Below, one piece after another: positions 12,292-40,890 of a DNA stretch of 64,000 nucleotides (positions within the stretch are counted from its first letter, which is position 1; every line of letters begins with the position of its first letter). The DNA is taken from assembly GCF_001747105.1 (NCBI RefSeq), contig NZ_MDGQ01000003.1:744001-808000 (forward strand), given 5' to 3'. This DNA comes from Roseivirga misakiensis. GTDB lineage: Bacteria > Bacteroidota > Bacteroidia > Cytophagales > Cyclobacteriaceae. Under the pieces are notes generated by a model. The model ran no database searches and had not been told where the DNA came from. It saw only the letters and a list, made by a program, of their open reading frames with translations. Both the position numbers and the translations under genes were made by a program.

Positions 12292-14309
12292 AACATCCTA
12301 GGGATTTGATTAATCGTCTTGATCGTAGATTCGTAGTCCAGACCTACTATATCCAGGTACCACTTTATCGAATTATATCGTGGCCTGTTTTCTTCATAAA
12401 TCTTTTCGAGGGCCTCTTCTCTGGTAATCATACCTTCTCTAATTTGATTACTTCTGAAAGTATCATTCTCACTAAATCCGGCTACTAGTGTGTAGATATA
12501 ATTGTAAAAACTAGCGGTTCCGTCTCCAATTCTCCAGGTAGAATCAGTATCTACAGCCTTCTCCCAATCATAGTTGTTAATAATGGTATCCTCGATGTGC
12601 TTTTCATCCCACTGAGCGTAATCAAACAAGTGATAGTAGTCTGCCTTAGGTGTAATATACCTCGAGGCAAAAGAACCTAATGAATCAAGTATGGACTGAT
12701 TGAAATATCCTGGGCTCTTTAACATATTGGCTCCTACAAAACCAAATAGCTTCATCTGATTCTGTATTGAAATCGAGTAAATTCTCTTTTTGTCAAACTC
12801 AGGCCTGAGTCCAGCAAAACCCGTCTTAAAATTGGTATTCTCCAGATGATTAACTCCCCAGATCTCAAGATCTATACCCAGTTGCTTCTTGATCTTATGA
12901 GCATAGTAAAAGAAGAACTTATCGCCAGCCATAAACAGTGGAATCATACCAAGAGCCGGCTTTTTCAACCAGGCCACAATATTCTTTCTGATATTCTCTC
13001 GCTTCCAGTGCATGTCTGCAGCAACAATGATATTCTCCACACCCAGCTTACCGCATATTCTGGCTACGTTTCTGCGGGCAAGGTCTGTCACCATTCCCCA
13101 GTCATAGGTATAAGTGATAGGGTTTAGCCCCAATTCTTCTTTGACCACATGCAGTACGTAAGTACTATCTCTACCTCCACTGAATGGTAAAAGAACGTCA
13201 GATTTACCATCAGTTCTTCTGTAAGGCTCTACCAAAGTCATCAGCTCGGATAGGGGCCTCGGTTGGTTCTTATTTTCGTAATTATTGCAATAATTACAAA
13301 CTCCGTCATGATCGTAAAGGATGTATGGAAATGTTTCAGGCAACAGGCACTTAGTACACCGCTTAAGCCCTTTTATCTTATCACTCGGATAAATAAGTAG
13401 CCCCTTTTGTGCCTCAGCCTCAGGGTTGAGGTGAATCAGGTTCAGGTCCATCACTGTTGATATTTGCTCCTTATTGGAAGCAACCGTGGCAATATTAATC
13501 TCCCGTTTTTCCTGAGTCTTTGGCGTTTTTTCCTTTGGAGTGGATGCAAAATCAAATTCTGTAATACCAAACGTATCCAATGCCACACTCATTCCTGTAT
13601 TGGCTGGTATTTGCTTTTTCTCGAGTGTAGAGATTACCGACAGATCAGCTTTTTTCTCAAATTCATTAAGAATGTAAATTTCTGAAGCGAAAAAGACGAT
13701 GTCCTTGTTATTTGTAATGACATAAAGTGATCCATTGTTTGTTGCCAAAACGAAACGATCGTAATCTTCGAAGACCAAAGCAGTGGCTACAGTACCAAAC
13801 ACTTCATCTCCCACCGCCTTTACAATACCTTCTTCTAATGAACCTTCCGCAGCAAACTTTCTGACCAATGCCAGCATTACCTCCGTATCGATCTCGTTTT
13901 CTCTGGTGAGATCAGTATGCTTCTCCCATAGCTGGTCCACATTAGTAACAATACCGTTGTGAACCCCAACAACACCATCTTTTGCCACTGGTTGATTGTT
14001 ATTGTCATTCAGCTGTGTACCGTTGGTCACAAGTCGGGAATGCCCATAAACATATTTACAAGCACTCGTCTTAGAGCCGAGGGCATTTTGAATCAGTTGA
14101 GAGGCCTCCGGTCTTTTCAGGAGCTCATTGATCCTCACCGGCCCTTTCAGTACATCTATTTTGTGATTTTGCTGATTGAAAGCGCAAAGACCCGAAGAGT
14201 CTTTACCTCTTCTTTGCGAAAGCTTAGCCAGCGATTTCACTGATTTAATTAGGAAATCACTGCTGTAGGTAGCCTTTTCACTTACAATTACCCCAAAAAT
14301 TCCACACAT
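12288..14309 (-). CDS. Fused class II glutaminase + N-acetyl sugar amidotransferase (PseA/WbpG-like)
   Basis: A 673-residue two-part enzyme. The N-terminal ~230 residues are an Ntn-type glutamine amidotransferase: catalytic Cys2 in MCGIFGV, RRGKDSSG, GHSRLVTNG, HNGIVTN and IDTEV, as in GlmS or asparagine synthetase. The C-terminal ~355 residues match the N-acetyl sugar amidotransferase family (WbpG, PseA, LegG): a two-pair Cys motif (CTKC and CNYC, about 316-343), the ATP-pyrophosphatase loop SGGRDST near residue 375, and GVNHLENTNF. Together they would use glutamine-derived ammonia to turn an acetamido group of an NDP-sugar into an acetamidino group. In the best-known systems the glutaminase is a separate HisH-like class I protein. 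The fusion is unbroken in one frame, and the next gene overlaps its stop. Confidence 0.82.
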   Translation of the reverse strand: MCGIFGVIVSEKATYSSDFLIKSVKSLAKLSQRRGKDSSGLCAFNQQNHKIDVLKGPVRINELLKRPEASQLIQNALGSKTSACKYVYGHSRLVTNGTQLNDNNNQPVAKDGVVGVHNGIVTNVDQLWEKHTDLTRENEIDTEVMLALVRKFAAEGSLEEGIVKAVGDEVFGTVATALVFEDYDRFVLATNNGSLYVITNNKDIVFFASEIYILNEFEKKADLSVISTLEKKQIPANTGMSVALDTFGITEFDFASTPKEKTPKTQEKREINIATVASNKEQISTVMDLNLIHLNPEAEAQKGLLIYPSDKIKGLKRCTKCLLPETFPYILYDHDGVCNYCNNYENKNQPRPLSELMTLVEPYRRTDGKSDVLLPFSGGRDSTYVLHVVKEELGLNPITYTYDWGMVTDLARRNVARICGKLGVENIIVAADMHWKRENIRKNIVAWLKKPALGMIPLFMAGDKFFFYYAHKIKKQLGIDLEIWGVNHLENTNFKTGFAGLRPEFDKKRIYSISIQNQMKLFGFVGANMLKSPGYFNQSILDSLGSFASRYITPKADYYHLFDYAQWDEKHIEDTIINNYDWEKAVDTDSTWRIGDGTASFYNYIYTLVAGFSENDTFRSNQIREGMITREEALEKIYEENRPRYNSIKWYLDIVGLDYESTIKTINQIPRMF

Positions 14310-18648: not shown

Positions 18649-19548
18649 CTAAATTCTCGACAAAGTATTGGACAAAAGCTCGCCATAAACAGTTTTTAAA
18701 TCTGGTTTCATTGCCCTGTCGTATACATTGATTATGTTCTTTGGTCTTTTATATATCCTCATTCTATTTGAACCCTCAAACCATTTTAGTCGAATATCTT
18801 CCCAAATTGTCCAATCATTGGATCCAAAATAGTTTAAACTTCTTTCTTGCTTAAGCGAATGATATTCGGAATTTTTCAAGTAGTAATTTAAAAAGTCGAT
18901 ATAAAGCTCCACACTCCCCTGTATACCTTTCAAAAAAAGCGTACTTGCATTATCCGATTCCGAGATTTCAGGGAGGTAATATGCCAAAATATTTCCCCCA
19001 TCGATCCTCTCATTCATCACCATAAGTGTTCCGCCAGATAGATTTGGTCTGCCTTTCGCCACACAATGAAATGCAATACTTGAACCATTGAAAAGTGGAG
19101 ACAAACCACTGTGATAGTTAAGCACTAATGCCGTAACGTTGTCAAAGAATTTCTTTCTCGCGATATCTCCCCCTAGAAAACACACTACTTTGGGTTTCCG
19201 ATTATTAATCCAGGAAATGGTCACATCTGAATTAACATCTGTTGAATGAAACACTTCACTGGTATCGGGCAATGTATCTAGCGATTGGTTCTTGAAAGAC
19301 TCTGACTCTACATATGCCAGCCTCTTCGCAAAACCATGTCGGGTAAACTTATGATAAAAAGAGCTCATCAGTTTGAGCATCAACCATAAGTATCCAAATT
19401 TCTTAATTCCATCCTTTAACCTCTTCTTGTTTGATACCCTCTCAGGGCGGACAATACATATGCTGACACCAGAAAAAGTTGAGGCCAAGGCTTTAGCCCA
19501 ATAAATATGTCTGGGGCTAGAATTCGTAACCAAAACCAGATTACTCAT
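18649..19548 (-). CDS. Formyltransferase-fold protein, probable sugar N-formyltransferase
   Basis: A 299-residue protein with the 10-formyl-tetrahydrofolate-dependent transferase fold. The catalytic Asn and His are in LNYHSGLSP near residue 143, and the catalytic Asp is in ERIDGGNIL near residue 181, as in ArnA, VioF and PurN. The spacing and length are those of sugar N-formyltransferases rather than Met-tRNA formyltransferase, and the locus is polysaccharide-specific. It would formylate an amino sugar; the best candidate in the window is the aminated deoxysugar made by the genes at 22.4-26 kb. The first 100 residues are less conserved. Its ATG overlaps the end of the preceding GT2 gene by eight bases. 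Confidence 0.75.
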   Translation of the reverse strand: MSNLVLVTNSSPRHIYWAKALASTFSGVSICIVRPERVSNKKRLKDGIKKFGYLWLMLKLMSSFYHKFTRHGFAKRLAYVESESFKNQSLDTLPDTSEVFHSTDVNSDVTISWINNRKPKVVCFLGGDIARKKFFDNVTALVLNYHSGLSPLFNGSSIAFHCVAKGRPNLSGGTLMVMNERIDGGNILAYYLPEISESDNASTLFLKGIQGSVELYIDFLNYYLKNSEYHSLKQERSLNYFGSNDWTIWEDIRLKWFEGSNRMRIYKRPKNIINVYDRAMKPDLKTVYGELLSNTLSRI

Positions 19549-21695: not shown

Positions 21696-22409
21696 TCACC
21701 GATTCTTGAAATAAACACCATCTACCTGAAGTAGTCTTCCACTCTCCGGGTCATAAAAGCCTGGTTCAAGAGAGTAAAGGTCAAAGCCTTTGGAAACAAT
21801 ATAGGCATTCATATCATCAAAAAGGCTTTCACCCTTGTATAGTTCTGTCAATGACATTTCAAGCTGTATTCCCACAATGTCTTTCAAGGAGTTCTCAGCA
21901 CCTTTTAGCACCATCATTTCAAATCCCTGAACATCAAGCTTCAACATGATTGACCTATGCTGTTGCAGTCCAAGTTCAGGAAAAAGGCTGTCAATAGTCT
22001 TTACCTCGATCTCCTCTCTTGACTCAAAGGTCGATGCAGGAGCTGCTTCTTTGTGGCTGTCTTCTAAATCAAGAAGGGAGCTACTCACTGAGTTCTGCGA
22101 AACATTGATGAAGGCCTTCTCATTTTTATCCCCAACGCCCAGGTTAAGACATTCCCATGAGGGATCATTTTGACTATTGGCTTTCAATCTCTGATAAGCA
22201 AAAGAGGTTGGTTCAAATGAAATAATACGTCCATTAAAACCCAATTTACGGGACAAAGAAGCAAACTGGCCTTGATTTGCACCTATATCAATAAGGCAAT
22301 CCACCATGAAATGATTATAGAGCTTTACCCTTCTTAATAAATGATCGTTTGGATAGCGTACTATCTCAAACCCTAACTTTCTGGACCACTTTTTTACAAA
22401 ATCTCTCAA
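21696..22409 (-). CDS. FkbM-family methyltransferase
   Basis: A 237-residue SAM-dependent methyltransferase of the FkbM family. The SAM loop is LIDIGANQGQFA near residue 41, followed by ISFEPTSFAYQRL near residue 64 and LKLDVQGFEMMVLKGAE near residue 150, all family hallmarks. FkbM enzymes O-methylate sugars and polyketides, so a sugar hydroxyl of the repeat unit is the likely target. The start is a TTG at 22409: an in-frame stop lies three codons upstream and no ATG is near the N-terminus. It lies between the deoxysugar enzymes and the Wzy-like gene. Confidence 0.82.
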   Translation of the reverse strand: MRDFVKKWSRKLGFEIVRYPNDHLLRRVKLYNHFMVDCLIDIGANQGQFASLSRKLGFNGRIISFEPTSFAYQRLKANSQNDPSWECLNLGVGDKNEKAFINVSQNSVSSSLLDLEDSHKEAAPASTFESREEIEVKTIDSLFPELGLQQHRSIMLKLDVQGFEMMVLKGAENSLKDIVGIQLEMSLTELYKGESLFDDMNAYIVSKGFDLYSLEPGFYDPESGRLLQVDGVYFKNR

Positions 22410-22418
22410 TATCTTACG

Positions 22419-23405
22419 TTAAGTTGTTAATGTAGCCTTTTCTCTAAGCTGTTGAATTAGGTTTGCCTGCACTTTATTAGATAGATTTTCCCGTTCCCTC
22501 TTCTCTTCTTCGGCTACAAGCGTGTAAAAATACTGCAACATGTTTTGATAGGCATTATCTGATTCCCAAATAATGCTTTTGGTTCCATCACTGGTTTCAA
22601 GCACGATTGTCGGCTTAAAATCGATAGGGGCTGTAAATATTCTATTCGTAGAAACCTTTCCTTTGCTTCCCCATAACTCAATGTTACATTGGTAGTAATT
22701 ATCAAAACCAAAAGCTATTTCAGAGAATAGGGATCCCGAACGCTGTTTCAGATAGCCACCTCCCCAGATATCTACCTTGAGTTCGTCATCGAAACTCATA
22801 TTTGAAGCCTCTACTAACAAGTCTGTTCCCAAAAACTCTTGAGTAATTCTGATTGGGTAGGCTCCTGCATCTAACAATGCACCTCCACCAAGGCTGGCAT
22901 TGTATCTGATATTGTCTTTATCTTTAAAGGGTGGAAAACCAAAAGAACTTCTTAAACATCTTAGCTCTCCAATGGTGCCATCTGCCACCAGACTCTTGAT
23001 ATAGGCCAGTTGACTGTGAAACCTGAATTGGAAATTTTCCATTAGGGCCAAGCCCCTTTCACCAGCGATGGTTATTAAGCTTTCAACTTCCTGTGGCGAA
23101 CATGCAAGTGATTTTTCAACCAAAACATGTAACCCTTTCAACAGACACTTTTCAATCCATTCAAAATGCAGTGAGTTGGGAAGGGGAATATATACGGCCT
23201 GGAGACCTTCTGTTTCCAAGAGGGTCTCATAAGAAGCAAAGCCTGGAACATTGAACTTCTCGCTCAGCTCTTCTGCCTTCTGTCCACTCCTACTCGCAAT
23301 TCCGATGAGATTGAAGTGGTTCTTCAAACCCTGAATTGCGGGAATCATTGAGCGTTGTGCAAAACTAGAACCTCCAATTATCCCAAAGTTTATTCTAGAA
23401 CCCAT
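22419..23405 (-). CDS. Gfo/Idh/MocA-family oxidoreductase, candidate sugar 3-ketoreductase
   Basis: A 328-residue NAD(P)-dependent oxidoreductase. The dinucleotide motif FGIIGGSSFAQRSM is at the N-terminus, VLVEKSLACS gives the EKP-like element with Ser replacing Pro, and GGGALLDAGAYPI near residue 165 is the family catalytic region. A longer frame begins with GTG at 23459 inside the aminotransferase gene, but the ATG at 23405 is five bases after that stop and places the glycine motif correctly. In antibiotic sugar pathways enzymes of this family reduce the 3-keto product of NDP-hexose 2,3-dehydratase. The adjacent dehydratase makes that the leading inference. Confidence 0.8.
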   Translation of the reverse strand: MGSRINFGIIGGSSFAQRSMIPAIQGLKNHFNLIGIASRSGQKAEELSEKFNVPGFASYETLLETEGLQAVYIPLPNSLHFEWIEKCLLKGLHVLVEKSLACSPQEVESLITIAGERGLALMENFQFRFHSQLAYIKSLVADGTIGELRCLRSSFGFPPFKDKDNIRYNASLGGGALLDAGAYPIRITQEFLGTDLLVEASNMSFDDELKVDIWGGGYLKQRSGSLFSEIAFGFDNYYQCNIELWGSKGKVSTNRIFTAPIDFKPTIVLETSDGTKSIIWESDNAYQNMLQYFYTLVAEEEKRERENLSNKVQANLIQQLREKATLTT

Positions 23406-23410
23406 ATCTC

Positions 23411-24559
23411 TTAATTTGGATACATCTCTGTTAATACCTTCTCCATTTCTGCCATACACTGCTCTAGTCCGCTTTCAGCCAGATCAGTATAAAATGGCAT
23501 TCTTAAAATCAAGTCTCCAAGTTCTTCGGTTAAGGGGAGATCCTCAGGTCTGTAGCCCAGCTTCATACCCATGGGTGAAGAGTGAAGTGGCAAATAGCCA
23601 ATGTAGGCAGAAATACCTTTCTCTTTGAGGGTGAGCATGAAATGATTCTTATTCTCCACAGAATCAAAAACTGCCCAGAAGGCGTGATGATTAAGTTCAT
23701 GGTCAGCTGTTGGTTGAAAGACTCTGACCTTTCCTCTTTTTACGTATTGATCAAAGAGCTTGAAATAGGCTTCTGTTAATTTGCTCCGCTTAGCCCTGAT
23801 CTCGTCCTCACTTTCCAATTGTGCGAGGAGTACGGCTGCCAAAATATCTGATAAGAGATAGCTTGATCCTTTGTCCACCCAGCTGTACTTATTCTTCACT
23901 CCATTCAACACTAACCTGCGGTCAGTTCCTTTTTCTTGAAGAAAATAGGCCCGCTCTTCCCATTCTTTCACATTGACCACAAGCCCACCACCTTCTCCGG
24001 CATTATAATTCTTGGTTTCATGAAAACTATAGGCTGCCAAATGAGCCTGACTTCCACAAGATTTACCTTTGTAGGTAGAGCCAAAAGACTGGGCACAATC
24101 CTGCATAACAATCAAGTTATGTCGATTGGCTATGTCCATAATTTTGTCAATCTCACAAGAAAGCCCTGCATAATCGATTGGCAAGATCATCTTTGTTTTT
24201 TCAGTGATCAGCTCCTCAATCCTATTGGGATCAATGTTCATTGTCTCAGGATCTACCTCACAAAACACTGGTTTTGCACCAAATAGAATTACCGCATTTA
24301 CAGTAGAGCTGAAAGTGTAGGAGGGTAAAATTACCTCATCTCCTGGACTAATATCGGCCAGCACGGCTCCCATTTCAAGTGCCGCAGTACAAGAAGGAGT
24401 GAGGTAAATCTCTCCCAGGTCTTGATATTTATTTTTTATGAGGTCAATGACCCTATTACAGAAAGAGTGGTTACCACAATGCGCTCCGGATCGAAGTGCC
24501 TCTAATACGTACTGCTCTTCTTTGTTAGCTGCGTATACTTTATTGAATGGAATTCTCAT
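23411..24559 (-). CDS. DegT/DnrJ/EryC1-family sugar aminotransferase (WecE-like)
   Basis: A 382-residue PLP enzyme. Residues fitting the family are PSCTAALEMGA near 54, VMQDCAQSFG near 154 with the PLP-ring Asp, and the Schiff-base Lys in FHETKNYNAG near 181. The overall pattern (RIPFNKVYA at the start, SFHETKN) is that of WecE-like enzymes, which aminate C4 of dTDP-4-keto-6-deoxyhexoses. It lies two bases from the 2,3-dehydratase gene and five from the oxidoreductase gene. It would aminate the 4-keto group of a 2,6-dideoxy intermediate; amination at C3 is an alternative. Confidence 0.85.
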   Translation of the reverse strand: MRIPFNKVYAANKEEQYVLEALRSGAHCGNHSFCNRVIDLIKNKYQDLGEIYLTPSCTAALEMGAVLADISPGDEVILPSYTFSSTVNAVILFGAKPVFCEVDPETMNIDPNRIEELITEKTKMILPIDYAGLSCEIDKIMDIANRHNLIVMQDCAQSFGSTYKGKSCGSQAHLAAYSFHETKNYNAGEGGGLVVNVKEWEERAYFLQEKGTDRRLVLNGVKNKYSWVDKGSSYLLSDILAAVLLAQLESEDEIRAKRSKLTEAYFKLFDQYVKRGKVRVFQPTADHELNHHAFWAVFDSVENKNHFMLTLKEKGISAYIGYLPLHSSPMGMKLGYRPEDLPLTEELGDLILRMPFYTDLAESGLEQCMAEMEKVLTEMYPN

Positions 24560-24560
24560 C

Positions 24561-25973
24561 TCACTTTAGAAATTGAATTGTTGAAATCAGGCTCCTCGCC
24601 TGAATATTGAGATAATTGTTAAATTTTAAGAAGATACTCATTTGGTGAAGAGTCATCCAGATATAATTGTCCGGGACTTCTTCTGACATATTATCATCGG
24701 CCTCTATGATCAGGTTGCGATTCTGTTCCCTGTAAAATCGACCCCCCTCTTCAGATTGTAGCGTATCATAACGTATCTGACTACTATCTGCATTGAGAAT
24801 ATAATCCAGAAAGGGCACATCTTTTGAATTGGCATAACTGCCTGTAATACACTGAACGGTCGGTGCCATTTCCAGTATATCAAAGTTTCCACACTCCAGT
24901 TTGGCCTGCACCAAAAAGTGTGATACTCCGTTGATTCGCTTATGAATAAATGCAATGATGCCTGGTTCTATAGGCCCCACCAAAGGCTGGTGCCAAGACC
25001 TGACCTCCCGGTTTGAGATTTCTACCTGAGCGGCTATTACATTGAAATAAAGATTGTTCTCTTGCCGGATGACATCCTCTTCTATAATCCAGCCCTTAAT
25101 ATCAAAAAGTGAAATTGGCCTTACATTGAGGTCAAAATTGCATTTGAGTTGAGTCAACCATGTAATAATTTCATCGACCTTATAGAGAGCTACATCTCCA
25201 TTGATCTGGCTTTCCAGCATAGCATAGTCGATCTGTCCAGCCGCAGCTACTCTCATTTCTGATACGGGCTTTAAATGACCACTAAATGAAATGGCTGAAA
25301 TCACGGTACGGGTATCCATGTTCACCACGTTATCATAACACAGCAGTCGTTTGATTTGCCCTAAAGTAAGCCAGATAAAATCTTCCTCTACAGGGATATC
25401 CTCATCTGCCTTGATGATCATATTCCTATTTCTCTTTTTGTAAAATCTGGCACCTTGTTCCGATTGAAGCTGATCAAGGATAACCTGATCTCGCTTGACC
25501 TGCTGAAAATATTCAAGGTATAATGGCTTTCTACCCTTATGCACTTGAGAATAATTACTTCTCGTGGCCTGTAGCGTAGGAGAGAGTTGAACATTATTTA
25601 CATTGCCGGGCTCTATCTTAGCTTGTAAAAGAAAATAAAGTATTCCATTGATCTCTTTGGTTATGATGCCCAAGTACCCTACTTCGGGCTGATCAATTAC
25701 GGGTTGTTCCCATTCCTCTACTTTACCCCAATTGGTCTTGACATTAATACCGCTTATTGAAAAGAACCTGCCGCTGGAATGCCTCAGCGCACCTTGTTTC
25801 TCGTCTAAATGCCAATCTTTCATTTCCCTGAAAGGGATTTTATTTACATTGACCTTAGTGGCTGCATTCCGCTTTCGTAACCAATGAAGGGTCTCTTCAG
25901 TACTAATGAAAGGATTCTCTTCAGTAATGGCTGAGCCAAGAAGTAGGTCTGTGTTAAGAACTGTACGGTCCAT
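24561..25973 (-). CDS. NDP-hexose 2,3-dehydratase (EvaA/SpnO-like)
   Basis: A 470-residue protein made of two tandem copies of the same ~220-residue unit, as in EvaA, TylX3 and SpnO. The repeat is visible: LQSEQGARFYKKRNRN near residue 170 and LQSEEGGRFYREQNRN near residue 405; likewise VEEWEQPVIDQPEVG and VRSWHQPLVGPIEPG. Enzymes of the family eliminate the C2 hydroxyl of dTDP-4-keto-6-deoxyglucose, the first committed step to 2,6-dideoxy sugars. They are best known from actinomycete antibiotic clusters. Here it sits with RmlA and RmlB genes 3-5 kb upstream and with aminotransferase and ketoreductase genes directly downstream, in a surface polysaccharide locus. Confidence 0.88.
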   Translation of the reverse strand: MDRTVLNTDLLLGSAITEENPFISTEETLHWLRKRNAATKVNVNKIPFREMKDWHLDEKQGALRHSSGRFFSISGINVKTNWGKVEEWEQPVIDQPEVGYLGIITKEINGILYFLLQAKIEPGNVNNVQLSPTLQATRSNYSQVHKGRKPLYLEYFQQVKRDQVILDQLQSEQGARFYKKRNRNMIIKADEDIPVEEDFIWLTLGQIKRLLCYDNVVNMDTRTVISAISFSGHLKPVSEMRVAAAGQIDYAMLESQINGDVALYKVDEIITWLTQLKCNFDLNVRPISLFDIKGWIIEEDVIRQENNLYFNVIAAQVEISNREVRSWHQPLVGPIEPGIIAFIHKRINGVSHFLVQAKLECGNFDILEMAPTVQCITGSYANSKDVPFLDYILNADSSQIRYDTLQSEEGGRFYREQNRNLIIEADDNMSEEVPDNYIWMTLHQMSIFLKFNNYLNIQARSLISTIQFLK

Positions 25974-26010
25974 TAGGAATATTAACCTTTAGCGCAATCC
26001 CGGAATGGGA

Positions 26011-26400
26011 TCAATTTCTTTCAAGCACGATAAGCTTTTCTGTAAAGCCCACAGATTTAAAGAGTCTTATACTGGCCTCGTTGCTAATTTTCACTCTGGC
26101 ATAGGCTTTGGGAAATATCTTCATGATTTCATCTATCATAAATTTTCCACAACCTTTTCCCTGAAAATCAGGATGTGTGCATACCCTGATATCATTATCA
26201 ATCACACCAACATATCCGGCCGGCTGGCCCTCGAAAAGCAGAATTCTGTAAAATTTGGAATGATCAGCCATATAAGCCTTTTGCATATCAGGTGTAATGG
26301 TAATATCATCTAGAAAACCTTCTTTAACACGCTGATCCTGCCTAAGAATCCTTACAAACTCCCAGTACTGCTCGGTACATTTAACCAATTCCATACTCAT
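26011..26400 (-). CDS. GNAT-family N-acetyltransferase
   Basis: A small GNAT enzyme of 129 residues. The acetyl-CoA pyrophosphate loop is HPDFQGKGCGKFM, preceded by the beta strand GQPAGYVGVID and followed by ARVKISNEASIRLFKSVGF, the usual last third of the fold. I use the ATG at 26400; a longer frame begins with TTG at 26448 and would overlap the glycosyltransferase stop by eight bases. Placed between the glycosyltransferase and 2,3-dehydratase genes, it may acetylate an amino sugar of the repeat unit, as an alternative or addition to formylation. The substrate is not known. Confidence 0.75.
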   Translation of the reverse strand: MSMELVKCTEQYWEFVRILRQDQRVKEGFLDDITITPDMQKAYMADHSKFYRILLFEGQPAGYVGVIDNDIRVCTHPDFQGKGCGKFMIDEIMKIFPKAYARVKISNEASIRLFKSVGFTEKLIVLERN

Positions 26401-26440
26401 TATCGCAAATAGTTTTCTTGGTCTTAAGCGGTTGCCAGTG

Positions 26441-27724
26441 TCACTCAAGAGCTGAAAGTAGCTCCTTAAAATTCTTTAGGAAAATATTCATATTGGTTTT
26501 TTCAGAGGCCATCTTGTTACAGGCTTCAGACATTTGAGCATATTCAGCTTCGCTTTTATGCAAAATTCTGAAGATTCCCTCGGCCATCTGATCGGTGTTT
26601 GGCAGATCCGCCATATATCCAGTGGATCCGTTTTCAATAAGATCCGGACCTACTCCTATATTAAAAGAAACTACAGGTGTTCCTGTCATCAATGACTGAT
26701 TGATCATCATAGGACCGGAATCTTCAATAGATGGACTCACCAATACGTCAGCGGCATTGTAAGCCTGAGACAGACCTTGATGATTCATAAAACCTAATGC
26801 ATGGCATTTAAAGGGAAGACTATTAAGGAAGTCCTCCTGCGACTTACCTGCCACCAAAAGTTCGACTTCAGGAGAATCCTTTGTCAACATTGCCTTGAGC
26901 TTATGAAGACAATCAACAAGCTCCTTGAGTCCTTTTCGTTTTTCCCAGGTAGAAACTGCTCCAAAAAGTATCAGCTTCTTCTCTTCAGGAAGCCCTAATG
27001 CTTTTCTGGCAACTCCATGATCCTTCTTCCTAAACACATCATCATCGATTGGCAATAGAAGTTTCGATTTGGGTACTGCTTTGAAAAGACTGCTCTGATG
27101 AGTCTGCTGATCAAGGCCATCAGAACCAGCCACCAGCGCTATGTTCATCTGGTCGATATATTTCTTCTTGAATTCCCAGTTTACCCTTGACAGATCATTG
27201 CCGGTATCTGAGTAATAAGCTGGGCATTTACCGCAAGCCTTCAGGTAACCATCACAATTCCAGGCAAAATGACAACCTCCGGTGACTGCTGCCATGTCCA
27301 TCATGTATAGGATAACCAATGCACCAGTCTTCTGCTGAAGCTCATACAAATGCCTGAAAGAGATGAAATTGTAAATGAAAGTCGCTACAATAATATCTGG
27401 CTGAAAGCTGCCTAACTTGAGAATCTTCTTCGTCTTTAACGAGAGTTTAGAGGCATCTGGAGTCAATACGTAATAATCTGGATCCGTTTTGATTGAATTC
27501 GCCACGCCCAATTCTCTCTTGATCTTATTCTGTACTCTCTTATTTAGTCCGTAAAGCTTTGAGTAGAAAGATTTTACCCCTGGTGTTTCAGAGTCATATG
27601 TATCTTTAACAATAACCTCAACTTTGAAATCATTCTTAGACTCAAGTGCCTTTTTTATGTCTAGCGCAACAATTCCGGCAGACCTGGTTGGATTAGGCGA
27701 ACTAAGGATTAGAACATTTCTCAT
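26441..27724 (-). CDS. Family 4 glycosyltransferase
   Basis: A GT-B glycosyltransferase of 427 residues. The N-terminal domain has the LSSPNPTRSAGIVALDI donor-side loop and the Cys-rich segment GGCHFAWNCDGYLKACGKCP near residue 160, a signature of a GT4 subgroup. The C-terminal domain has GAVSTWEKRKG near 235, the E-x7-E-like region SPSIEDSGPMMINQSL near 330, and GTPVVSFN. It is soluble or peripheral. The ATG at 27724 overlaps the TGA of the flippase gene (ATGA); a TTG at 27733 is an unlikely longer start. It would add a sugar to the lipid-linked unit of the larger system. Confidence 0.87.
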   Translation of the reverse strand: MRNVLILSSPNPTRSAGIVALDIKKALESKNDFKVEVIVKDTYDSETPGVKSFYSKLYGLNKRVQNKIKRELGVANSIKTDPDYYVLTPDASKLSLKTKKILKLGSFQPDIIVATFIYNFISFRHLYELQQKTGALVILYMMDMAAVTGGCHFAWNCDGYLKACGKCPAYYSDTGNDLSRVNWEFKKKYIDQMNIALVAGSDGLDQQTHQSSLFKAVPKSKLLLPIDDDVFRKKDHGVARKALGLPEEKKLILFGAVSTWEKRKGLKELVDCLHKLKAMLTKDSPEVELLVAGKSQEDFLNSLPFKCHALGFMNHQGLSQAYNAADVLVSPSIEDSGPMMINQSLMTGTPVVSFNIGVGPDLIENGSTGYMADLPNTDQMAEGIFRILHKSEAEYAQMSEACNKMASEKTNMNIFLKNFKELLSALE

Positions 27725-29085
27725 CTGTTCCAAATACCTTTGGCGGTACTATTCATGATTTTTTGGTACTGGATCTGATAGACAACCACACCCACAATTT
27801 CAAAAATAACCATGGAGTACATAATACCTGAGATTCCAAATCTATCGCAGAAAAACAATGTCAAGGGTATGTATAGGATGGTCATAATTGTCAGTCGATA
27901 CATCTGCACCACCAATTTGCCGACACCATTTAAGAACGCATTGAAAATATTATTGAAAGTGTTTAGCGAAACATAGACCGCCAATGAGATGATCAGTCCT
28001 TTTTCTATAAACAGTTCTTTTCCTACCCATAGTGGGATAAGCCGATCAGAGAACACAAAGAGTCCGGCAATCAGCAGAAGTAGCAAAAGCCAGGTAAGCT
28101 TAAGCTTGGAGATGGTCTTCTTAATCCATCCCAGTTCATTTTTAACAAAGGCCTCAGTAATGGCGCTCCAATAAGGTGAGAGTATAATAGCAAAGCCCAA
28201 GGTGGCAATGCTGAAATACTGGAAAGCAACACTGTACGGGGTTACTTCAGTTGGCCCAAAAAGACGGGTGAGTATGAAGTTATTGGTCTGATAGAAAACA
28301 ATTGCAGCAATCTGAACAACAAAAAATTTGATCCCCAGATTCATTAAGAACCCAAGTTCCGAAAAACGAACAAGCATGAACGTAGGCCTAAGTTGCTTAT
28401 ACCTTGTCCGGAATATTATGATAGAAAGTGTCAGGCTTATAAAAACGGGAACTCCCGCTAGAATTGCCCCCAGATAAAGCAAGCGACTTTCTGCAAAATT
28501 GAGTAGTAAATAAATCCCCAAAAGTGCCAACAGTCTACCTGTAACACTCAAGCCTTGGGCCAAGGCTGGTTCTTGTTTGGCGTAAGCTATGGATTCAATA
28601 AGGCCAACTACAAACTTGGCGCACAGAAAGAAAAAAACTGTCAGTGCCAGTTTGCCCAATTCTTCGCTCAAAAAGCTTGAGGCATTCAAAATCGAGGCCC
28701 AGTCCAGAAAAAAATTAGCCCCAAGAAAAAGCAGGAATACACCAGCAAATATAAGCCCCAAAGTGACATATGTTGTGCTCACATAAATCCGTGCTTTTTG
28801 AATATCGTTTCTGGCAATGGCTTCAGTTAATCGGTTTCTTAGGCCATTGCCCAAACCAACATTGAACAGTGAGAACCATCCGAGAATCACTGATAAGGTA
28901 ATCCAAATTCCATAGCGCTCATCGTCCAGATAGTTTAGTACAAGCGGAACTTGTATGAAGGAAATGAGAGAATTGAGACCCTGAAGGCCAAACAACCCAA
29001 CTATATTGATTCTCGCTTTGGCTGATCTCTGATCAGCGTTAAAGAAGAGTGTATTAAGAATGGGGATGCGTCTTAAAAAAGACAT
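27721..29085 (-). CDS. Wzx-type oligosaccharide flippase (second copy)
   Basis: A 454-residue membrane protein with about twelve to fourteen hydrophobic segments, from the MATE/MOP-type flippase group. Family features include an early GLQGLNSLISFIQVPLVL helix, YLDDERYGIWI, and LFNVGLGNGLRNRL near residue 75. It would carry undecaprenyl-linked repeats to the periplasm for the polymerase at 20.4 kb. It lies ten bases after rmlA and overlaps the GT4 gene. It is not closely similar by eye to the flippase at 4.4 kb, which agrees with two different polymers. Confidence 0.85.
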   Translation of the reverse strand: MSFLRRIPILNTLFFNADQRSAKARINIVGLFGLQGLNSLISFIQVPLVLNYLDDERYGIWITLSVILGWFSLFNVGLGNGLRNRLTEAIARNDIQKARIYVSTTYVTLGLIFAGVFLLFLGANFFLDWASILNASSFLSEELGKLALTVFFFLCAKFVVGLIESIAYAKQEPALAQGLSVTGRLLALLGIYLLLNFAESRLLYLGAILAGVPVFISLTLSIIIFRTRYKQLRPTFMLVRFSELGFLMNLGIKFFVVQIAAIVFYQTNNFILTRLFGPTEVTPYSVAFQYFSIATLGFAIILSPYWSAITEAFVKNELGWIKKTISKLKLTWLLLLLLIAGLFVFSDRLIPLWVGKELFIEKGLIISLAVYVSLNTFNNIFNAFLNGVGKLVVQMYRLTIMTILYIPLTLFFCDRFGISGIMYSMVIFEIVGVVVYQIQYQKIMNSTAKGIWNR

Positions 29086-29095
29086 ATGAACAAAA

Positions 29096-29971
29096 TCAGG
29101 AGCTGATCAGTCGATTGAGATAAACCGCATAGCTGCTCTTACCATGCTCATTGGCCAGTTCTTTCAACTGTTCCAGATCAATGTATTTCATGCGGTAGGC
29201 TACCTCTTCAATACATGCTATCTTCAAACTTGTTCTTTTTTCAATAGTTTTAACAAATTCTATTGCTTCAGACATAGATTCGTGTGTACCGGTATCTAAC
29301 CAGGCATTTCCCCGGCTCATCTTTTGGATAGTCAATGCATTCATCTTGAGGTACTCCTGATTGACAGAAGTAATTTCAAGTTCTCCTCTATCCGAAGGTT
29401 TTACTCCTTTGGCAATCTGAACCACACTATTTGGGTAAAAATAAAGTCCCACAACTCCATAGTTGGATTTAGGCTTCTCGGGCTTTTCCTCTATGCTTAG
29501 GACCCTTCCATTACTATCAATTTCTGCGATACCATACCTTTCCGGATCTTCCACTATATAACCAAAAATAACGGCCTCTTTCCGCTCAGCCACTCGCTGG
29601 ACTGAAGAAGCAAGGAGTTCCTGAAAACCAGCTCCGTAAAAAATATTGTCTCCTAGCACAAGACACACGTCATCATCGCCAATAAACTCTTCTCCTATCA
29701 AAAATGCCTGGGCCAGACCATCAGGACTGGGTTGTTCAGCATAAGATAAAGAAATGCCCAGGCCACTCCCGTCTCCAAGCATTCTTTCAAAATGAGGTAG
29801 GTCATGCGGTGTAGAAATAAGCAGGATATCGCGGATGCCAGCAAGCATTAAAACCGATAGTGGATAATAAATCATGGGTTTATCATAAATCGGCAACAAC
29901 TGCTTTGATATCACTTTTGTAGCTGGATATAATCGGGTGCCTGATCCTCCCGCAAGAATAATTCCTTTCAT
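29096..29971 (-). CDS. rmlA: Glucose-1-phosphate thymidylyltransferase RmlA
   Basis: A 291-residue nucleotidyltransferase that makes dTDP-glucose from glucose 1-phosphate and dTTP. The N-terminal pyrophosphorylase signature GGSGTRLYP is at residues 8-16, with [11 protein letters not shown] following, and VLGDNIFYG near residue 106 is the metal-binding Asp region. The length is normal for RmlA. It lies 31 bases after rmlB and ten before the flippase gene. RmlC and RmlD are not in the window, so the dTDP sugar is probably routed to the 2,3-dehydratase branch rather than to rhamnose. Confidence 0.96.
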
Positions 29972-30002
29972 TGAATATCTGTCTTTAGTCGAAGAGTCTC
30001 TA

Positions 30003-31055
30003 TCATACTTTCTGACCTAGTCTTTGTAAGTCATAACTACCCTGACTTACGGCCTGGCACCAATCCTCATTTGAGAGATACCACTCCACTGTCTTCCTAA
30101 TACCTGACTCAAAGGTCTCATCAGGATTCCAGTTTAATTCATTTTGTAGCTTGGCTGAATCAATGGCATATCTAAAATCATGCCCCGGTCGGTCTTTCAC
30201 AAAGGAGATCTGATCAGAAAAGATACCTTCTGGCTTAGGTCTTAACTCATCCAGGATAGCGCAGATACTAAGCACTACCTCCAGATTGGTTTTCTCGTTA
30301 TTACCTCCGATGTTATAGGTTTCACCAGGCCTTCCCTCACAGAGTATTTTCCAAAGAGCTTTGACGTGATCATTCACAAAAAGCCAATCTCTTATGTTAT
30401 CACCCTGCCCATATACGGGAATAGACTCTTCTCCCAAAGACTTCAGAATCACTACTGGTATTAGCTTTTCCGGAAACTGATACGGACCATAGTTATTGGA
30501 GCAATTGGAGACGACAACAGGTAATCCATAGGTATAGTACCATGCTCTTGCCAGATGGTCAGAAGAAGCTTTAGAAGATGAATAGGGAGATCTTGGGTGG
30601 TAAGGTGTTTCTTCTGTAAAAAAGCCTGTGGTACCTAGGGAGCCAAAAACCTCGTCAGTAGAAACATGAAGAAATCTAAAATTCTCTTTCGCAACACCTG
30701 ACAAGTTGCTAAAGTAGACCTGTGCCACTTTAAGTAAGCAATGTGTACCTACCACATTGGTGGTGATAAAATCGGAAGAGTTGTCAATAGAACGGTCTAC
30801 GTGAGATTCGGCCGCCAGGTGCATCACTGCATCAGGCCGATGCGTGTTGAAAACTGCATTGACCGCCACTTCATCACGGATATCTACTTTTTCAAAAATA
30901 TATCTTTCAGAATCACTGACTTCTGACAGTGATTCAAGGTGACCGGCATAGGTCAAAGCATCTACATTCACCACTGTATGTTCCGAATGTTGAATTAGAT
31001 ATCTGACCAGCGCAGAGCCTATAAAGCCGGCTCCTCCGGTTACCAAGACTTTCAT
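30003..31055 (-). CDS. rmlB: dTDP-glucose 4,6-dehydratase RmlB
   Basis: A 350-residue extended SDR that converts dTDP-glucose to dTDP-4-keto-6-deoxyglucose with bound NAD. The cofactor loop TGGAGFIGS is at residues 6-14. [12 protein letters not shown] near residue 80, HVSTDEVFG near residue 130 with the catalytic Asp-Glu pair, and the Tyr-x3-Lys in YSSSKASSD near 159 are all RmlB hallmarks. Its product is the entry metabolite for the 2,3-dehydratase encoded at 24.6 kb. It lies 13 bases downstream of gmd in the same operon. Confidence 0.96.
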
Positions 31056-34294: not shown

Positions 34295-35266
34295 TTATCG
34301 CGTTGAAAAAGGGTGTTTTGACAACATTTCCTTGGCCATAGGGTGATAATCTCCCTTTATTCCAATTGGTTTTATGTGGCGTATATCATGTACAATGCTA
34401 ATCGCATTGTGAGTTTCTTCAATACCAAAGCCATTTCCTGCGAGAATATTCTCATAGGAGACACAGTGCAAATCTGTAAAACCTCCACTAAATTCAAGCT
34501 CCTCTCCTTCAATAGCAATGGACCTGTAAGTTCTTTGCCCTTTTTCTGCGATCTTTGCCGGGAGCATATTCTCGTTGATCGATAAAAACCACCTGACATT
34601 TGCTTTCTCCAATTGTAAAAATCCGGCCGCTCTGTCATGAGAATGGATATGGACCTGATTTGACTTCACGTCTCCAAAAATCCAGGTAAGCATATCATAA
34701 AAATGCACTCCTATGTTAGTCGCAATTCCTCCAGACTTCTCTATATCACCTTTCCACGAGGTGTAATACCAGTGCCCTCTTGAAGTAAGGTAAGTCAGGT
34801 CAATATCATATATTTTGTCCTTCGGGCCCTCATCAATTTTCTTCTTAAGGGCTACAATACTCGGGTGTACCCTGAGCTGCAAGATATTCCAAATTCTTCT
34901 ACCTGTATTTTCCTCTATTTTACTCAGTGCATCAATGTTCCAGGGGTTTAAAACCAGAGGTTTTTCACAAATGGCATCTGACCCTACTCGAAGGGCCTGT
35001 CTTATGTGTGCGTCATGCAGATAATTGGGTGTACAAATACTGGTGTAATCCAGATCAATTCCCTTTTCGTACCGAAGCTTTTCTATGTGTCTATCAAATC
35101 TTTCAAATTCGACAAAGAAATCAGCATTGGGAAAATAGGAGTCCATAATTCCCACACTATCAAACTTGTCAAGGGCAGCTATCAGGTTATTGCCTGTGTC
35201 TTTTATGGCCTTGAGATGTCGAGGAGCTATATAACCTGCGGCTCCTATAAGGGCAAAGTTCTTCAT
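34295..35266 (-). CDS. wbpB: WbpB/WlbA-like UDP-GlcNAcA 3-dehydrogenase (Gfo/Idh/MocA family)
   Basis: A 323-residue oxidoreductase. LIGAAGYIAPRHLKAIKDTGN at the start, ICTPNYLHDAHI near 100, ICEKPLVLNPWN near 118 and GGIATNIGVHFYD near 180 match the WbpB/WlbA group. That enzyme oxidises C3 of UDP-N-acetylglucosaminuronic acid, giving the 3-keto sugar for transamination. Its ATG overlaps the stop of the WbpD-like acetyltransferase gene (ATGA), and WbpA- and WbpE-like genes lie 5-8 kb upstream, which supports the assignment. Confidence 0.82.
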   Translation of the reverse strand: MKNFALIGAAGYIAPRHLKAIKDTGNNLIAALDKFDSVGIMDSYFPNADFFVEFERFDRHIEKLRYEKGIDLDYTSICTPNYLHDAHIRQALRVGSDAICEKPLVLNPWNIDALSKIEENTGRRIWNILQLRVHPSIVALKKKIDEGPKDKIYDIDLTYLTSRGHWYYTSWKGDIEKSGGIATNIGVHFYDMLTWIFGDVKSNQVHIHSHDRAAGFLQLEKANVRWFLSINENMLPAKIAEKGQRTYRSIAIEGEELEFSGGFTDLHCVSYENILAGNGFGIEETHNAISIVHDIRHIKPIGIKGDYHPMAKEMLSKHPFSTR

Positions 35267-35853
35267 TGAATTTTGGTGACTTGATTATCCTTTAAAAAGT
35301 ATTCTGTACCTGATTCCGGGCATTTGGCAACGTTATTTTCGTCAAACTCTAAGCGGTGACCAAATTCACTCATCCAGCCAATTTGTCTTCCTGGATTGCC
35401 CACGATCAAGGCATAAGCAAGTACTTCCTTAGTCACTACCGTACCTGCTCCTATAAATGCGTATTCTCCTATGTCGTGTCCGCATACTATTGTTGCATTT
35501 GCACCAATAGTTGCTCCCTTTTTTACCACAGTCTTAGAATATTGACCCCTCCGATTCACTCCGCTCCTTGGATTCACAACATTGGTAAAAACCATAGACG
35601 GGCCCAAAAAGACATCATCTTCACAAATGACTCCCGTGTAAATGCTCACATTGTTCTGAACTTTTACATTCCGACCTAGAGTCACCTTTGGACTCACTAC
35701 TACGTTCTGACCTATATTACAGGCCTCTCCAATAATACAATCAGACATGATGTGAGAGAAATGCCACACTTTTGTTCCAGACCCAATCTTGCAATTGTCA
35801 TCAATTACGGTAGTTTCATGCGCAAAGAAGGAGGTTGTCTTACCTTGATCCAT
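35263..35853 (-). CDS. wbpD: WbpD/WlbB-like N-acetyltransferase (left-handed beta-helix)
   Basis: A 196-residue hexapeptide-repeat acyltransferase. Repeats of the type I-G-x-x-x-x (VIDDNCKIGSGTKVW, CIIGEACNIGQNVVV, TLGRNVKVQNNVSIY) build the beta-helix, and FTNVVNPRSGVNR near residue 89 is typical of WbpD/WlbB. It would N-acetylate the 3-amino group of UDP-GlcNAc3NA, completing UDP-2,3-diacetamido-2,3-dideoxyglucuronic acid. Its ATG overlaps the stop of the exporter gene by one base (TAATG), so it is in the same operon. Confidence 0.85.
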   Translation of the reverse strand: MDQGKTTSFFAHETTVIDDNCKIGSGTKVWHFSHIMSDCIIGEACNIGQNVVVSPKVTLGRNVKVQNNVSIYTGVICEDDVFLGPSMVFTNVVNPRSGVNRRGQYSKTVVKKGATIGANATIVCGHDIGEYAFIGAGTVVTKEVLAYALIVGNPGRQIGWMSEFGHRLEFDENNVAKCPESGTEYFLKDNQVTKIQ

Positions 35854-39743: not shown

Positions 39744-40880
39744 CTATCTATTAAAGTATTCAAGAACTCCGTTAATAATAACGCCTTGCTGTTCATTACT
39801 CATTTCTGTATGAATTGGGAAAGAAATCACTTTAGAACAGAGATCTTCAGTTGTTGGAAAATCTCCTTTTTTGTAACCAAAATAACCATATGCCTTTTGT
39901 AAATGATTTGGCACTGGATAGTAGATCATTGAAGGAATTCCGTTCTGAGCTAAATAAGTATTGAGGCCCTTTCTATCCACACTATTAGAAAGTTTCACAG
40001 TATATTGGTGAAAAACATGTGTAGAAAATTCAGACCGAAATGGTACTTCTATTAAATTTGACTCACCAAATGCTTTATCATAATTATTCGCCACATCTCT
40101 CCTGGCATCACTATACTGGTCTAAATACTTAAGCTTTACTTTAAGGACAGCGGCCTGTAATGAATCAAGCCTTGAATTTACCCCAATCGAATCATGGTAA
40201 TATCTTTTACTTTGGCCATGATTTACAATCATTCTGATACTAGCAGCTAGCACATCATCATTTGTGAAAATAGCACCACCGTCACCATAGCAGCCCAAGT
40301 TTTTGGCAGGAAAGAACGAAGTAGCTCCTGCATCTCCAATTGTTCCAGCCTTAGCAATTCTTCCATCTCTAAAAGTATAGTCTGCACCTATGGCTTGTGC
40401 TGTATCCTCAAACACTTTGAGATTATTCAACTTAGCCAATTCCATTAATGGCTCCATGTTAGCACACTGTCCATAAAGATGTACGGGAACGATAGCAACA
40501 GTCTTATTGGAGATTTTTGACGATAAATCCTCAATATCAATATTGAAAGTATCGGGATAAACCTCAACAAACACTGGTTTTAACCCTAAAAGTGCGATTA
40601 CTTCGACCGTAGCTACATAAGTATAAGATGGGACTATTACTTCAGAACCTATTGGAAAATCATGAGCCATCATGATCACCTGAAGTGCATCCGTGCCATT
40701 AGCGCACGGAATCACATGGTTTACACCTAAATAAGCTTCTAAAGCTGATTGAAATTCATATACTAATGGCCCATTGATAAAGGCGGCCGAATCCAGAACC
40801 CTGTCAAACTCCACTCGGATTTCATCCTTTATTTTAGCATATTGGCTGATTAAATCAACCATTTGAAGTTTTTCTTTCAT
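39744..40880 (-). CDS. wbpE: WbpE/WlbC-like sugar aminotransferase (DegT family)
   Basis: A 378-residue PLP-dependent aminotransferase. PCANGTDALQV near residue 58, VFEDTAQAIGADY near 160 with the PLP Asp, and the Schiff-base Lys in SFFPAKNLGCYGDGG near 191 are family hallmarks. The SFFPAKNLG form is typical of the WbpE/WlbC and DesV-like groups, which aminate C3 keto sugars. With WbpA-, WbpB- and WbpD-like genes nearby it would make UDP-GlcNAc3NA. It is the last gene of the cys-uridine-sugar operon and ends 142 bases before the regulator start. Confidence 0.85.
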   Translation of the reverse strand: MKEKLQMVDLISQYAKIKDEIRVEFDRVLDSAAFINGPLVYEFQSALEAYLGVNHVIPCANGTDALQVIMMAHDFPIGSEVIVPSYTYVATVEVIALLGLKPVFVEVYPDTFNIDIEDLSSKISNKTVAIVPVHLYGQCANMEPLMELAKLNNLKVFEDTAQAIGADYTFRDGRIAKAGTIGDAGATSFFPAKNLGCYGDGGAIFTNDDVLAASIRMIVNHGQSKRYYHDSIGVNSRLDSLQAAVLKVKLKYLDQYSDARRDVANNYDKAFGESNLIEVPFRSEFSTHVFHQYTVKLSNSVDRKGLNTYLAQNGIPSMIYYPVPNHLQKAYGYFGYKKGDFPTTEDLCSKVISFPIHTEMSNEQQGVIINGVLEYFNR

Positions 40881-40890
40881 TTCTTGCTAA

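Follow-up and report, generated by a model that had tools for sequence, protein, structure and literature searches.

Which sugar is assembled by a gene cluster that places a 2,3-dehydratase of nucleotide-activated hexoses among the genes of a surface polysaccharide? The question is raised by a stretch of Roseivirga misakiensis DNA of 64,000 nucleotides (G000:C3:744001-808000), hereafter the window, in which a sugar gene cluster occupies positions 22419-31055, all on the minus strand. As far as sequence comparison can tell, the product of this cluster is probably a dTDP-4-amino-2,4,6-trideoxyhexose destined for a Wzx/Wzy-type polysaccharide of the cell surface. What we computed is gene identity and order, catalytic residues, co-occurrence and tree placement; every reaction, the stereochemistry at C4, the acylation and the use of the sugar in the polymer we infer.

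A predicted route to a 4-amino-2,4,6-trideoxy sugar

RmlA and RmlB would supply dTDP-4-keto-6-deoxyglucose, from which an EvaA-type 2,3-dehydratase (DH) would remove the C2 hydroxyl, yielding a 3,4-diketo-2,6-dideoxy sugar. A reductase (RED) would then reduce C3 to give a 4-keto-2,6-dideoxy sugar, whose C3 configuration our proposal leaves unspecified, and a WecE-like aminotransferase (AT) would aminate C4, probably in the axial position, like WecE. The adjoining GNAT enzyme probably acetylates this amine, and the nearby glycosyltransferase and flippase would then use the sugar. An earlier note on this DNA had put forward the same order of dehydration at C2, reduction at C3 and amination at C4, and this order is suggested by the nearest solved relatives (EvaA, a 3-ketoreductase and WecE) together with the kept catalytic residues. 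Every gene named in that note (RmlA, RmlB, dehydratase, aminotransferase, reductase and GNAT) is present, on the minus strand. The cluster reads, in order of transcription:

30003..31055, minus strand: RmlB, dTDP-glucose 4,6-dehydratase (TIGR01181, 469.8 bits against an equivalog cut-off of 365.1)
29096..29971, minus strand: RmlA, glucose-1-phosphate thymidylyltransferase (TIGR01207, 458.6 bits against an equivalog cut-off of 360.65)
27721..29085, minus strand: Wzx-type flippase (PF01943, 45.9 bits, cut-off 28.2)
26441..27733, minus strand: glycosyltransferase (Glycos_transf_1; PF00534, 73.9 bits), by position the candidate transferase for the sugar
26011..26448, minus strand: GNAT acetyltransferase (PF00583, 38.1 bits), by position the candidate N-acetyltransferase for the 4-amine
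24561..25973, minus strand: predicted NDP-hexose 2,3-dehydratase (DH) of EvaA type, with two repeats (PF03559; EvaA 4j7g)
23411..24559, minus strand: WecE-like aminotransferase (AT), with the C4-type motif GEGG after the pyridoxal phosphate (PLP) lysine (DegT/DnrJ/EryC1/StrS; PDB 6blg/4piw)
22419..23405, minus strand: Gfo/Idh/MocA reductase (RED), predicted sugar 3-ketoreductase type (PDB 3rbv)

An FkbM methyltransferase and a polymerase-like protein come next. The intergenic gaps measure 37 bases between GNAT and DH, 1 base between DH and AT and 5 bases between AT and RED.

The dehydratase

DH carries two PF03559 domains (502.9 bits, cut-off 25), and its halves are 33% identical across 208 aligned positions (E 1.4e-44), which bears out the two internal repeats that the earlier note had seen by eye. 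EvaA (4j7g) is its sole solved match at E 0.001, with an E of 5.1e-111 and both repeats covered. Changing either Glu139 or Glu190 in pocket A of EvaA abolishes activity (PMC8987622); these residues correspond to Glu121 and Glu172 of the window DH, and both positions hold Glu in 32 of 32 aligned DHs, an alignment that takes in the window DH and eight actinobacterial ones. The two domains and both catalytic Glu thus point to an NDP-hexose 2,3-dehydratase of EvaA type. At the position of Asp353 in EvaA pocket B, a Glu stands in the window DH and in 30 of the 32 DHs, and pocket B of the second repeat may be less degenerate than that of EvaA. The 2,3-dehydratases named in the passages of PMC8987622 covered here come from antibiotic pathways.

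There is also a diverged, shorter PF03559 subfamily of 423-441 amino acids, scoring about 110-147 bits to the window DH (L053:8769-11013; L116-L118; L057:7669-10260). In L053, from the window's own family, and in L057, a Hoeflea plasmid, the short-type gene directly follows a GT61 glycosyltransferase, with no RED-type 3-ketoreductase adjoining it. Short-type DHs keep Glu139 and have Asp in place of Glu190.

The reductase and the aminotransferase

The best solved match of RED within the Gfo/Idh/MocA family is the sugar 3-ketoreductase 3rbv (KijD10; E 4e-58). Its probable start is the ATG at 23405, rather than a GTG at 23459 that overlaps AT. The Lys and Tyr altered in PDB entries 3rcb and 3rc7 correspond to Lys98 and Tyr183 of RED, and both residues are kept in 26 of 26 aligned reductases. 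Best solved match and kept residues together argue for a sugar 3-ketoreductase of the 3rbv type.

AT, for its part, matches the WecE enzymes 6blg/4piw best among solved structures (308 bits). It passes NCBIfam NF008687 (dTDP-4-amino-4,6-dideoxygalactose transaminase; 432.1 against a cut-off of 375) and scores under the cut-off of TIGR02379 ECA_wecE (370.7 against 434.85). It is 43% identical to E. coli WecE, with which it groups in a tree along with two other WecE-like proteins (100/100), on a branch of length 4.89 against a median of 0.33, a length that makes its exact placement unsure. Its catalytic residues are kept. The motif after the PLP lysine is GEGG in the window AT and EGG in WecE, ArnB-like and perosamine synthase chains; five compared chains, including DesV (2oga) and QdtB (3frk), have GDGG. 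From the compared chains we ourselves read the motif as a probable sign of which carbon is aminated, C4 for the former and C3 for the latter. WecE-like proteins matching at 1e-70 occur in 130 of the 380 genomes of the order, that of the window among them; outside this genome the best-scoring match is 45% identical to AT, and the highest identity among the matches listed is 50%, over part of the protein. AT thus appears to be a fast-diverging branch of WecE and not a DesI-like enzyme.

Dehydratase cassettes in other genomes

A contig scan of genomes, which picks up close relatives only, gave 14 DH loci. DH domain searches gave hits in 1 of 147 genomes of the relatives sample (that of the window), 12 of 390 genomes of the order, 9 of 395 of the class, 3 of 395 of a phylum sample and 2 of 92 of one other family, the window's genome being counted in all but the last; half of the order matches (6/12) are of the diverged, shorter type. 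Among 85 plasmid records with a DH match, 83 are actinobacterial by the first word of their name, the others being Serratia and Hoeflea.

Our comparison set is made up of 25 other, distinct loci from outside the actinobacteria that carry a main-type DH; the DH is partial in two of these (L054 and L027) and split over two frames in L026. Outside this set stand L020, where the contig ends just after DH, L055 (partial DH, from the genome of L054), L056 (distant DH), L107 (from the genome of L015) and the short diverged DHs (L053, L057, L116-L118, plus the like hits G739 and G807). In 24 of the 25 loci a RED is found no more than 1 kb away from DH; L104 is without it and L025 has a weak match (78 bits). 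The third slot, for which short-chain dehydrogenase (SDR) and AT classes were assigned by phmmer with one query each, holds an SDR in 14 loci (the ketoreductase cassettes) and a DesI-like AT directly after RED in seven (L019, L022, L023, L054, L105, L108, L109). An EvaB-like AT with a ketoisomerase-like gene occurs in one (L025), and neither SDR nor AT in three (L112-L114). These last three have DH, RED and then a methyltransferase-like gene (the family match was run for L112), with no ketoreductase or AT matched in 19 kb.

For the ATs of L019 and L022 the best NCBIfam model is DesI, far under its cut-off (272.7 and 252.8 against 650), and the best PDB match of the former is 2po3 (192.6 bits), presumably DesI, followed by the C3 enzyme QdtB (165.5). 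All seven cassette ATs form one group in the AT tree, apart from WecE. An acyl or formyl transferase lies near AT in four of the seven, which supports a C4 amine there: in L108, AT is followed by a protein homologous to dTDP-4-amino-4,6-dideoxyglucose N-formyltransferase (226 bits to 6v2t), L019 and L105 have hexapeptide transferases 8 bases and 0.2 kb on, and in L109 a GNAT lies 1.7 kb past AT and a hexapeptide protein 2.2 kb past it. In L022, L023 and L054 the gene next to AT is no such transferase, that of L023 being classed by its beginning, which resembles that of L022. These two very similar loci (L022:3374-5747 and L023:3399-5774) come from Ignavibacteria and Nitrospirae bins; in L022 the gene after AT belongs to the B12-binding radical SAM proteins and might encode a C-methyltransferase.

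The reductase tree links the window to these AT cassettes. Computed without L020, L022, L026, L027 and L104, it places the window RED in one clade with the REDs of L054, L105, L108 and L109, all from AT cassettes (100/99), and the clade was recovered again when two long branches (L025, L115) were also left out. Forcing the window RED together with the six nearest REDs of ketoreductase cassettes, a group chosen once the first tree had been seen, costs 56.7 log units and is rejected by the approximately unbiased (AU) test (p-AU 1.7e-8). In the DH tree (without L026, L027 and L054) the sister group of the window DH combines three AT cassettes with six ketoreductase cassettes (95/91); this fits the window as an AT cassette and is not decisive.

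RED falls within the AT-cassette clade but AT is WecE-like, not DesI-like, and AT may therefore have been swapped. More speculatively, we suggest that the DesI-like AT of a surface DH-RED cassette was replaced by a WecE-derived AT retuned to dTDP-4-keto-2,6-dideoxyglucose. The C4 amine would thereby have changed from equatorial to axial and the product would be an N-acetylated 2-deoxy Fuc4N, the third slot being exchangeable among a ketoreductase, a DesI-like AT and a WecE-like AT. WecE sets the C4 amine axially and DesI equatorially; the axial and equatorial part of the idea rests on these properties of the two enzymes. No report of N-acetylated 2-deoxy Fuc4N as a surface sugar was found in the portions of the open-access literature covered. 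If the proposed pathway is correct, reactions so far associated chiefly with the antibiotics of actinomycetes extend to the surface glycans of Gram-negative bacteria, and a defined sugar is predicted that can be searched for. The three states of the third slot would further provide a set for studying how surface sugars diversify by the swap of one enzyme and how an aminotransferase acquires a 2-deoxy substrate.

Evidence against the proposed pathway and alternative explanations

Several observations weigh against a 4-amino-2,4,6-trideoxy product. AT departs at 34 alignment columns from the consensus (at least 95%) of 32 WecE-like sequences, one of them an inserted residue and others including E. 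coli WecE positions F319, H320, H127 and G30; the FHY stretch of the E. coli enzyme presumably sits by the sugar. Such departures would fit a new substrate and also loosened constraint. Moreover, AT does not resemble the DesI-like ATs that other cassettes carry and may still make dTDP-Fuc4N from dTDP-4-keto-6-deoxyglucose, and the order DH-AT-RED was found only in the window among the loci examined. The AT cassettes are not a single lineage: of the six that contribute a RED to the tree, two (L019 and L023) have theirs outside the window's clade. The SDR of the 14 ketoreductase cassettes is, by its position, a putative 4-ketoreductase. The choice between ketoreductase and AT is not a strict either-or rule: two of these 14 loci also hold a C4-type AT (L027, about 5 kb from DH, and L111, WecE-like, 7.2 kb), C3-type ATs lie 2.5 to 8.7 kb from DH in L015, L019, L026 and L115, and some compared contigs are short. 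In the 15 kb of L056, whose DH is more distant (210 bits), neither a RED nor a ketoreductase nor an AT was matched.

The genome also encodes rhamnose-type genes away from the cluster. The earlier note had stated that RmlC and RmlD are absent; this holds for the window, where neither scores over its cut-off, and fails for the genome, which has one RmlC (C3:702919, 210.6 bits, above cut-off) and, at C3:577165, one RmlD-like gene whose 195 bits fall short of the cut-off of 224.05. Their presence elsewhere was half of what that note had named as counting against its proposal; it also means that rhamnose may still be made. With RmlC and RmlD scoring over cut-off nowhere in the window, we discarded a rhamnose pathway within the cluster. 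The genome further carries a second rmlA, next to which lies an RmlB-like gene (L051).

The alternative that survives best, although we consider it unlikely, is that the cluster serves two separate products, AT making dTDP-Fuc4N as in the enterobacterial common antigen (ECA) pathway while DH and RED independently make a 2,6-dideoxy sugar. NCBIfam, PDB and tree all describe AT as WecE-like, and the combination of rmlB, rmlA, GNAT, AT and flippase is reminiscent of the ECA cluster in E. coli. A separate 2,6-dideoxy sugar fits poorly, however, with a genome that has no close homologue of the candidate 4-ketoreductase of other loci (best 52 bits), with an AT lodged between DH and RED at gaps of 1 and 5 bases, and with a RED that belongs to the AT-cassette clade.

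Amination at C3, which the earlier note had kept as its alternative, appears more doubtful still. AT would act on the 3,4-diketo product of DH, which has a keto group at C3, and yield a 3-amino-2,3,6-trideoxy sugar, as has been proposed for EvaB-type routes. On a Streptomyces clavuligerus plasmid, a locus with DH, SDR, AT and RmlC shows no annotated Gfo-type reductase in 19.5 kb, and L025 combines a ketoisomerase-like gene with its EvaB-like AT. Nevertheless, RED would remove the very keto group that such an amination needs, the motif of AT is GEGG (EGG in WecE, perosamine and DesI-like enzymes) and not the GDGG of DesV and QdtB, and a separate AT of GDGG type is available at 39747-40883. Least probable of all is a decayed or recently acquired, non-functional cassette, with the polymer drawing its sugars from other genes only: DH is missing from 146 of 146 other genomes of the relatives sample and the AT branch is very long, but the reading frames are open and DH, RED and AT keep their catalytic residues.

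Acylation and the polysaccharide setting

Beyond RED lie two further genes that might modify the sugar:

21696..22409, minus strand: FkbM family methyltransferase (TIGR01444, 96.1 bits), the next gene after RED, possibly acting in O-methylation
18649..19548, minus strand: formyltransferase-like protein (PF00551, 30.9 bits, cut-off 26.1), possibly N-formylating the cluster sugar or another

For acylation of the proposed 4-amine, the GNAT enzyme is probably the best placed by its position, the protein at 18.6 kb being weakly like sugar formyltransferases. Compared with E. coli WecD, GNAT gives no detectable match, and we dropped the idea of a WecD orthologue; nor does it have a PDB match. The 18649-19548 protein scores 28.4 bits to the N-formyltransferase 6nbp, its best match being a purine enzyme (30.3 bits), and against the formyltransferase of L108 it reaches 15 to 31 bits; on these scores we set it aside as a VioF-like formyltransferase.

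The polymerase-like protein past the FkbM gene matches Wzy_C under its cut-off (22.3 against 31.7). Around the cluster are genes for an initial sugar transferase (PF02397) and for two glycosyltransferases of family 2, together with Wzz-like proteins, export proteins and GDP-sugar genes, and this neighbourhood identifies the setting as a polysaccharide locus. Base composition was considered as a sign of transfer and found uninformative in either direction, the cassette genes (DH 41%, AT 42%, RED 41%) lying close to the window value (40%).

Two other regions of the window deserve mention. A second DegT-type aminotransferase, with the GDGG motif, is encoded at 39747-40883, and nearby Gfo/Idh/MocA and hexapeptide genes (34295-35853) recall WlbA and WlbB; a 2,3-diamino uronic acid is perhaps the product of this region. 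At 12288-14309 a single protein joins an N-terminal part resembling a glutamine amidotransferase to a WbuX-like N-acetyl sugar amidotransferase (139.6 bits against a cut-off of 203.2).

Comparison with known systems

No report of a 2,3-dehydratase in a surface polysaccharide was found in the titles and abstract beginnings of the open-access papers covered (in one result set 14 of 16 concern actinomycetes), and the passages covered of a review of marine O-antigens (PMC3210612) contain no 4-amino-2,4,6-trideoxy sugar without nitrogen at C2. The window shares with EvaA (4j7g), the 2,3-dehydratase of the chloroeremomycin pathway, the two-repeat PF03559 architecture and both catalytic Glu, and differs in having Glu for the pocket B Asp353; EvaA, moreover, takes part in the making of a 3-amino sugar. 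Like the dTDP-Fuc4NAc module of E. coli ECA (rffG, rffH, rffC/wecD, wecE, wzxE), it clusters RmlB, RmlA, a GNAT, a WecE-like AT and a flippase; by contrast, neither DH nor RED is annotated in the E. coli stretch, the window GNAT lacks a WecD match and its AT is a diverged branch. The seven cassettes with a DesI-like AT, from Bacteroidota, Nitrospirota and Ignavibacteriota, resemble the window in having DH and RED beside a C4-type AT, and a family 2 glycosyltransferase is nearby in all four that were checked (L019, L105, L108, L109). Their AT follows RED and is DesI-like, whereas that of the window lies between DH and RED and is WecE-like.

A better precedent than any the earlier note had offered appears to be the route to dTDP-vicenisamine, made by VinA, VinB, VinD, VinE, VinF and VinG, described in the passages covered as, in this order, dTDP-glucose synthase, 4,6-dehydratase, 2,3-dehydratase, 3-ketoreductase, aminotransferase and N-methyltransferase (PMC11284099). 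In polyene clusters such sugars have likewise been predicted from genes for a 2,3-dehydratase, a 3-ketoreductase and a 4-aminotransferase, according to the part of PMC8944477 covered. The window holds the first five functions of the vicenisamine pathway (VinA/B/D/E/F), compared by reported function and not by Vin sequences, and this set makes dTDP-4-amino-2,4,6-trideoxyhexose the best prediction. As to VinG, the methyltransferase that adjoins RED in the window is of the FkbM family. Vicenisamine belongs to an actinomycete antibiotic, vicenistatin, and its pathway includes an N-methyltransferase, whereas the window is a polysaccharide locus with a GNAT by DH and a WecE-like AT. The sugar chemistry would thus be known in kind, and what is new would be its setting, a surface polysaccharide, and the lineage of its aminotransferase.

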